From Luteimonas granuli (GTDB taxonomy: Bacteria; Pseudomonadota; Gammaproteobacteria; Xanthomonadales; Xanthomonadaceae): DNA of 64,000 nt. Positions 48,095-48,274 of this stretch are shown one piece after another (position 1 is the stretch's first letter; each line of letters opens with the position of its first letter). Position numbers and translations under genes: made by a program. The notes under the pieces were generated by a model. That model saw only the letters and a list, made by a program, of their open reading frames with translations, had not been told where the DNA came from and searched no databases. The DNA lies in NCBI RefSeq assembly GCF_007795095.1, contig NZ_CP042218.1, forward strand, positions 2,087,001 through 2,151,000. The letters are read 5' to 3'.

Positions 48095-48242
48095 AGCACT
48101 CTTGCCGGCCCATGCTTGTGCAGTGCGAGCTGCTGACTCGTTCAACTGTTCGGGCTCTGGCAAGAGCGTGGAGTGCGGGCGCCCTGGCTCCTACACGTGC
48201 TTCAGGGCACCCCAGCTTGTCGGCGTCCCGCACTCCGCTCTC
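48095..48242 (-). ncRNA. predicted bridge RNA of the IS110 element
   Basis: Two adjacent stem-loops read on the minus strand. Target loop: a perfect 10-bp stem GGAGTGCGGG/CCCGCACTCC (48227-48236 with 48170-48179) encloses AGCTG (48213-48217), identical to the left target next to the core, and TGTAGGAG (48188-48195), complementary to the right target CTCCTACA. Donor loop: stem CTCTTGCC/GGCAAGAG (48159-48166 with 48099-48106) encloses ACAGTTG (48143-48149), identical to the element's other end next to the core, and CACAAG (48115-48120), complementary to its own end CTTGTG. This is the guide logic described for IS621 bridge RNA. 5' and 3' ends are approximate. Confidence 0.78.
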
Positions 48243-48248
48243 ACCTGC

Positions 48249-48274
48249 ACGCTAGGCCAAAGCGAAGACACAAG
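48249..48274 (-). promoter_or_regulatory. candidate junction promoter for the bridge RNA
   Basis: On the minus strand, a -10-like TAGCGT (48249-48254) lies 17 bases after CTGCTT in the integrated state. In a circularised element the end junction would read TTGCTT, a better -35, with the same 17-base spacer. Transcription would begin near 48242, at the foot of the first stem. Junction promoters are known for IS110 circles; activity here is inference. Confidence 0.45.

Follow-up and report, generated by a model that had tools for sequence, protein, structure and literature searches.

Among the mobile elements guided by an RNA of their own, IS621 is one of the closest described systems for the element treated here, and statements on this and the other published systems refer to excerpts of the articles cited. 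In IS621 the RNA comes from the left end, ahead of the recombinase, and its target loop precedes the donor loop (Durrant 2024, PMC11208160). Each internal loop carries a left guide on its 5' side and a right guide on its 3' side, the core is CT and insertion takes place into a palindromic repeat (PMC11208160). The core dinucleotide belongs to all four pairings in IS621, and structures are said to vary among IS110 elements (PMC11208160). For the seekRNA of the IS110-type element ISEc21, a non-coding region that matches both target strands is described (Siddiquee 2024, PMC11187229); it is located upstream and the bottom-strand match comes first. In ISMch6 and ISXne4 the guide changes naturally with the target (PMC11187229). 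In addition, ISPpu9 and ISPpu10 of Pseudomonas putida are IS110 elements residing in palindromic repeats (PMC8450116, PMC1525189).

An insertion sequence in a 64,000-nucleotide stretch of the Luteimonas granuli genome (the window) resembles these systems in the features of layout, core, target and guide change named for each of them. We consider it very probable that it is a mobile IS110-family element with a bridge RNA directing its insertion into a palindromic repeat, by the full mechanism set out below.

The insertion sequence and its palindromic repeat

The genome comprises 2.92 Mb on a single contig with a completeness of 89.98%. Between ftsZ (45829-47088) and lpxC (from 48483 onward; both NCBIfam assignments) the minus strand carries an IS110-family insertion sequence of 1150 bp (47125..48274), one CT core being counted. 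Its ends follow from six genome copies, which are identical inside 47125-48274, the DNA being the same in all of them from the left core through the right end, and diverge outside. The transposase is intact (309 aa, ATG start, 47138..48067, minus strand) and comprises the domains DEDD_Tnp_IS110 (PF01548, 2.4e-21) and Transposase_20 (PF02371, 5.5e-20) as well as a motif G--P----SG, which was read by eye. It scores 217 bits against a cut-off of 140 with NF033542, entitled 'IS110 family RNA-guided transposase' in NCBIfam, and matches by sequence the solved-structure chains of ISCro4 (9t56, 8e-30) and IS621 (8wt6, 3.7e-29). A DEDD (RuvC-like) domain together with Transposase_20 and a long non-coding end upstream of the transposase (207 nt) combined with a short one downstream (13 nt from stop to core) are the marks of an IS110/IS621-type element. 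A related-locus search of the genome contigs gave no relative; those used below came from a search of genomes.

All six copies are flanked by AGCTG-CT-CCTAC (the core set off by hyphens), inside a palindromic repeat of the sequence GGTCGCAGCTGTAGCTGCTCCTACA or a near variant, which bears out the proposal of the earlier note that the element recognises this repeat, there called family A. In the window the left target AGCTG (48275..48279, minus strand) flanks the element, and the right target CTCCTACA (47117..47124, minus strand) has the CT core as its first bases. Two uninterrupted repeats face the interrupted one (48319..48376, plus strand); they contain 20-nt perfect inverted copies at 48319-48338 and 48351-48370. 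With up to two mismatches GTAGCTGCTCCTAC is matched 13 times in the window versus 0.15 times in shuffles, and the exact 12-mer AGCTGCTCCTAC occurs 25 times in the genome versus 7 times when read backwards. The start of lpxC was found in 24 of 25 relatives of the same genus that were searched. Among these 24, seven ftsZ-lpxC spacers were viewed and the element was absent from all seven; similar inverted palindromes occupy the spacer in at least two relatives (L155 and L157).

The neutral term palindromic repeat is used because the RAYT (Y1 transposase) family PF01797 gave 0 matches in the genome, at the completeness mentioned. A RAYT origin had been sought, none was found in the element's own genome, and the label REP/RAYT was not adopted. 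Many palindromic repeats in a genome in which PF01797 found no RAYT may mean that they are kept without one, or that the gene lies in the missing part.

A conserved bridge RNA in the leader

The body of the bridge RNA, consisting of two guide loops and a closing stem, was delimited at 48091..48243 on the minus strand by a covariance model built from relatives alone (R1); all following features lie on this strand. The closing stem pairs GAGAGC (48237..48242) with GCTCTC (48097-48092) and is helix 1 of the relatives' alignment structure (98.5% of cells paired); it spans both loops and is an addition to the layout of the earlier note. The outer stem of the target loop, formed by GGAGTGCGGG (48227..48236) and CCCGCACTCC (48170..48179), is helix 2 of the same structure and has changed on both sides in 10 of 14 pairs. 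It encloses the left target guide (A)AGCTG (48213..48218, with AGCTG at 48217-48213), an inner hairpin GTGC-CCTGAA-GCAC (48197..48210; helix 3, 84.1% of cells paired, both-side changes in 3 of 4 pairs) and the right target guide TGTAGGAG (48188..48195); the two guides covary with the left and the right target, respectively.

The donor loop is bounded in the window fold by CTCTTGCC (48159..48166) and GGCAAGAG (48106-48099). It contains the left donor guide ACAGTTG (48143..48149), a hairpin CGAG-TCAGCAG-CTCG (48126..48140, helix 5) and the right donor guide CACAAG (48115..48120). ACAGTTG equals the left donor at the far end of the element (47131-47125), and CACAAG is complementary to the right donor CTTGTG at the near end (48269..48274), which begins with the CT core. 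In elements with the far end ACGGTTA, the leader likewise holds ACGGTTA.

Every motif reported in the earlier note was located on the minus strand at the position given there, including the identity of AGCTG and ACAGTTG with the left target and the far end and the complementarity of TGTAGGAG and CACAAG to the right target and the near end. Some of its statements need correction. The four matches do meet at one CT core; the core (as AG) is inside the right guides TGTAGGAG and CACAAG, whereas GG and AA, not CT, stand after the left guides. The 10-bp and 8-bp stems are both present in the minimum-energy fold of the window, together with GTGC/GCAC, CGAG/CTCG and the closing GAGAGC/GCTCTC, but the 8-bp outer stem of the donor loop is missing from the relatives' model and weakly kept in the wide alignment, where every one of the five predicted pairs is broken in 2-7 of 22 sequences. 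The layout described as complete has to be amended for the inner hairpin, which the relatives fix as GTGC/GCAC, and for the core in the left guides. Two conserved internal loops, target loop first and donor loop second, and guides pairing with target and donor about one core dinucleotide (here in the right guides only) again correspond to the IS110/IS621 type. The folding energy of the leader is modestly low (z -2.42; 3 of 200 shuffles were equally low).

Relatives were sought with the transposase in 395 genomes of the family; no more than five candidates were scored in any genome, and 57 genomes gave matches at E <= 1e-40. This search supplied 30 loci; 80 more were obtained by place, and the copies of the own genome were added. 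From 123 loci 114 could be oriented, two partial transposases (L022, L025) were set aside, and in 111 the left end could be read. Left out were L013, which shows a copy already included, and L017 and L039, with no recognisable left end; L123, whose left end looks mis-anchored, and L107, whose guide fits its right target poorly, were retained.

Double changes were seen in 7 of 32 pairs in a close alignment of 22 leaders and in 20 of 35 pairs in a wide alignment of 22 leaders. The trimmed alignment, made of 22 relatives and excluding the window, has 34 pairs with 95.9% of cells paired, 18 of them changed on both sides. The number of double-change cells in the 22 relatives is 113 versus 38.6 in shuffles, a value reached by none of 500, and the covariation score is 0.413, compared with 0.143 in shuffles and 0.048 or less for slid structures. 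Of the five measures of structure, one, the number of further pair types, stays within the shuffles (33 versus 30.9; 88 of 500 reach the value). The earlier note had named loss of the two stems among homologs as a refutation; the stems are kept, with double changes. It had also proposed a covariance search of the leader region, and the model from the 22 relatives alone finds the RNA in the window at 48243-48091 (minus strand) with 123.6 bits (E 2.3e-27), the second-best match (E 0.1) overlapping with it on the other strand. In the own genome this model yields six matches, which are the six copies (E 1.1e-25; 150 of 3,886 first-look candidates scored).

The antisense strand and sX15

At the gathering threshold Rfam gives nothing in the window except RNase P. 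At the E-value threshold the plus strand at 48091..48247 matches RF02234 'sX15' over its full length (1-159) with 47.8 bits (E 2.2e-6), under the gathering score of 55; it is thus the same DNA stretch as the bridge RNA, but the opposite strand. A second full-length match is RF02243 Xoo8 at 48251-48555 (plus strand; 59.6 bits against a cut-off of 90), which reaches from the edge of the element across the repeats into the start of lpxC. sX15 reportedly originates from dRNA-seq in Xanthomonas campestris pv. vesicatoria, and its Rfam line describes RF02234 merely as sRNA. Excerpts of a dRNA-seq study in this organism report 24 sRNAs and do not name sX15 (PMC3771888), and in the open-access subset of the literature sX15 appeared as an entry in a table, and no statement linking it to IS110 or bridge RNA was found.

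When twelve loci were scanned with RF02234, 11 matched (42.5 to 183.6 bits), all of them antisense to the bridge RNA. Five are at or above the cut-off (L021 58.1, L040 128, L082 133.2, L086 167 and L105 183.6), the relatives L018, L026, L029, L032 and L034 are under it, and L024 has no match at the threshold used. In 198 genomes 35 had a match and 21 exceeded the cut-off, compared with 0 of 14 control genomes. The places listed number 85, one of which (G010, 35.8 bits) is weak and overlaps with a stronger match on the other strand. Thirty of the 85 were fetched, and 21 of these have, on the opposite strand, an IS110 transposase with its first aligned codon at a distance of 23-38 nt. Among the remaining nine, five leave the contig within 58 nt, two (L135, L138) have by eye an apparent decayed transposase start, and two (L139, L140) contain the bridge-RNA/sX15 stretch without an adjoining transposase and look like internally deleted elements.

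A candidate -10-like box for an antisense transcript, TAGACT, is located at 48080..48085 on the plus strand. From column 195 onward of the wide alignment A2, in the linker between RNA and transposase, the sole invariant columns spell an antisense TAnnnT, and in 42 of 44 distinct leaders such a box stands 7-11 nt from the complement of the RNA 3' end (with the position free and preference given to the box closest to 8 nt); a mis-set RNA end accounts for both misses. The -35 boxes are mostly poor, with 1-3 of 6 matches, few with 4 or 5, and a best value of 3 of 6 in the window. A described counterpart exists in ISPpu9, where the RNA Asr9 is antisense to the transposase leader and its -10 overlaps the ribosome site (PMC8450116). 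According to excerpts of that study transposition rose about three- to fourfold with additional Asr9, and translation increased in one reporter fusion, not in another (PMC8450116).

The chances seem about even that the leader also makes a plus-strand sX15-like antisense RNA which controls translation of the transposase, as Asr9 in ISPpu9. The RF02234 match on the strand opposite to the bridge RNA, the 21 of 30 fetched loci with a closely placed IS110 transposase, the conserved -10-like box pointing in the antisense direction and the precedent of Asr9 all speak for such an RNA; against it stand the window score below the gathering threshold, the lack of a match in L024, the poor -35 boxes and the pair changes, which favour the bridge-RNA strand: on that strand 45 cells are G.U versus 8 A.C, or 24 versus 8 once a single pair with G.U in 21 of 22 sequences is left aside. 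This better preservation of the fold on the bridge strand could also mean that RF02234 was modelled on the wrong strand and that the antisense RNA does not exist. We regard this as rather unlikely, with the TAnnnT box present on the antisense strand in nearly all distinct leaders and the -10 of Asr9 likewise overlapping the transposase ribosome site in ISPpu9 (PMC8450116).

If the antisense RNA is made, it would resemble Asr9, which likewise covers the leader of the transposase and has its -10 at the ribosome site. A further proposal, which must be called doubtful and speculative, is that the sX15-type RNA of this bacterial family acts as an 'anti-bridge RNA' with its own conserved promoter, which would be complementary to the whole bridge RNA including all four guides and would set the amount of free guide and the timing of jumps. 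The effect might go in either direction, because extra Asr9 raised transposition of ISPpu9 (PMC8450116). If true, the anti-bridge RNA would regulate an RNA-guided recombinase in nature. In any case sX15, a little-described Rfam family, gains a concrete setting as the reverse strand of bridge RNA, and this setting makes control of programmable recombinases directly testable.

Guides, targets and known bridge-RNA systems

The repeat-targeting class, defined by the left end CTTGTGTC and the right target CTCCTAC, comprises 53 copies with eight left guides; two of the copies have no readable right end. The window guide AGCTG sits at AGCTG in 6 of 6 copies and AGCCG at AGCCG in 22 of 22, while TGTCG is found at CGTCG (4/4), TTGCG at AGGCG (2/2) and TGCCG at AGCCG (1/1). 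GGCCG sits at AGCCG in four of five copies and at GGCCG in one; the 12 copies with AGTCG are divided between AGCCG (7) and AGTCG (5), and the single copy with GGTCG is at GCGCG, a poor fit. In L020, L015 and L044 the left guide fits in just 3 of 5 positions. Identical loops at unrelated sites, which according to the earlier note would speak against guiding, were not the pattern seen, as the uniform sites of AGCTG and AGCCG illustrate; AGTCG and L020 are partial exceptions.

Within the repeat class left guides and targets agree in 32 of 40 positions, which none of the 40,320 possible pairings exceeds; 120 pairings reach this value because several targets are identical. With copy-averaged identity 10 of 40,320 pairings do as well, and the test weakens to 1,752 of 40,320 when wobble is allowed. 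Other target types among the relatives are GCCTAACGC-CT-GAATTAAGCC and GCGTGGAT-CT-ACT, which we call attC-like and GTAG-repeat-like after the consensus sequences of that kind. Insertions at GCCTAACGC-CT-GAATTAAGCC or close variants, with matching guides, were observed in L038, L040-L043, L090, L091, L096-L102, L121 and L122; these sites presumably resemble integron attC sites. Across all classes, 9 of 111 rows being excluded (no right end, or masked N) and registers being free in observed and shuffled sets alike, 31 distinct target loops match their left target in 5.39 of 7 positions versus 4.27 when shuffled and their right target in 6.43 versus 5.17, in both cases with 0 of 20,000 re-pairings reaching the observed value. 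When each right-target type is represented by a single loop (n=8), the counts are 1 of 20,000 for the right guide and 0 of 20,000 for the left. The aligned relatives hence show the covariation of loop bases with insertion sites for which the earlier note had asked.

That note had singled out the left target guide, with 5 nt, as the weakest match. Since it equals the best of the 40,320 pairings in the repeat class, the comparison of sequences indicates that this guide is real and marks natural retargeting. It has T instead of C at -2 in comparison to the relatives, so the lineage appears to have changed its target to the T-type among the repeats of its host. In the genome 91 sites match the pattern BNNNNNNCTCCTACR, six of them being the guides (GCCCTGGCTCCTACA) of the six copies; the pattern is not enriched as such, because it has 368 matches when read backwards, and it misses sites with A at -7 and sites not ending in CTCCTACR. 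Sorted by eye from the 91, repeat-like sites of the T-type are GTAGCTG (20) and GCAGCTG (1), and the others are GTAGCCG (15), GCAGCCG (2), GCGGCCG (1), GTAGCGG (4) and GTGGCGG (1), single oddities such as GCAACTG being omitted. Thus both T and C are available at -2 in free sites, and all six insertions are at T (hypergeometric 0.019, 27/50 T), a test which is only supportive because the sites are clustered, non-independent and sorted by eye.

The targets being palindromic repeats, the protein itself might read the repeat, and the guide matches would then be leftovers of an origin from repeat-flanked DNA; Tobes and Pareja suggested, in the excerpts at hand, that some transposases may recognise palindromic REP as regulators do (PMC1525189). 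We hold this to be very unlikely, as guides and targets change together over eight left-guide and eight right-target types, and proteins of the IS110 family are reported to use RNA in experiments (PMC11208160, PMC11187229). Chance matches in a GC-rich leader, suggested by a left guide of merely 5 nt, are a practically negligible explanation, given the permutation tests and 50,000 dinucleotide shuffles of the leader minus its first 30 nt, which contained the ordered target pair within 45 nt in 24 cases and the ordered donor pair in 13, and in no case the two combined. Because the motifs came from the original finding, the shuffles are a check and not a blind test; the blind evidence consists of the relatives-only covariance model and the guide-target permutations.

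For the preferred reading, RNA-guided insertion, a sequence of steps can be proposed. The leader would be transcribed on the minus strand to give a bridge RNA of about 150-180 nt, most likely once excision had joined both ends in a circle and thereby built a promoter. A candidate for the latter is TTGCTT-N17-TAGCGT, with the -10-like box TAGCGT at 48249..48254 (minus strand). The T, A and T of TAnnnT are the sole invariant columns within 9-32 of alignment A1. The promoter is weak in the window (6 of 12 consensus matches), relatives reaching 9 of 12, and its register is conserved in two classes, the repeat one and the attC-like one, but not among 13 further distinct leaders. Promoters from insertion flanks score lower than joined ends (best 5-8 versus 6-9 of 12), with many single scores equal and the comparison made without a shuffled background. 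Within the palindromic repeat, the partners of the first loop would be AGCTG on the left, in the bottom strand, and CTCCTACA on the right, in the top strand; the second loop would pair with the joined ends ACAGTTG and CTTGTG, and the DEDD recombinase would exchange strands at the shared CT; therefore each copy would land at the same place in the same repeat. As to promoters, a related group with the far end ACGGTTA-CT (L033, L035, L036, L075-L081) has a leader that is built differently, and both conserved -10-like boxes are absent from the three distinct leaders of this group that were tested.

The IS621 principle, invoked in the earlier note, fits the element in covariance search, in covariation and in an NCBIfam model named for an RNA-guided transposase. 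Differences from IS621, as far as excerpts of its description go, concern three points: the left guides of the window element are without the core dinucleotide, its right guide has 8 nt, and its GAGAGC/GCTCTC closes over both loops, whereas the consensus in that paper has a separate 5' stem-loop (PMC11208160). The two bases after the left target guide, GG in the window, are CT in just 4 of 53 repeat-class copies; leaders of the attC-like and GTAG-like classes often carry CT there. In our judgement a core in all four pairings is a property stated for IS621 and not a family boundary, and the differences in core and closing stem are variations within a known kind. ISPpu9 and ISPpu10 differ from the window element in host and repeat (PMC8450116, PMC1525189), and the seekRNA systems belong to other branches, ISXne4 and ISEc11 being of the IS1111 type, and have other targets (PMC11187229). 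The element thus joins the bridge-RNA insertion sequences, for which repeat targeting, bridge RNAs and natural redirection are already in print (PMC1525189, PMC11208160, PMC11187229); what the present comparison contributes is that a hand-read layout has become a tested family in which guides vary in step with their targets over several types of target, and that one lineage has been caught with a guide fitting the repeat variant of its own host.
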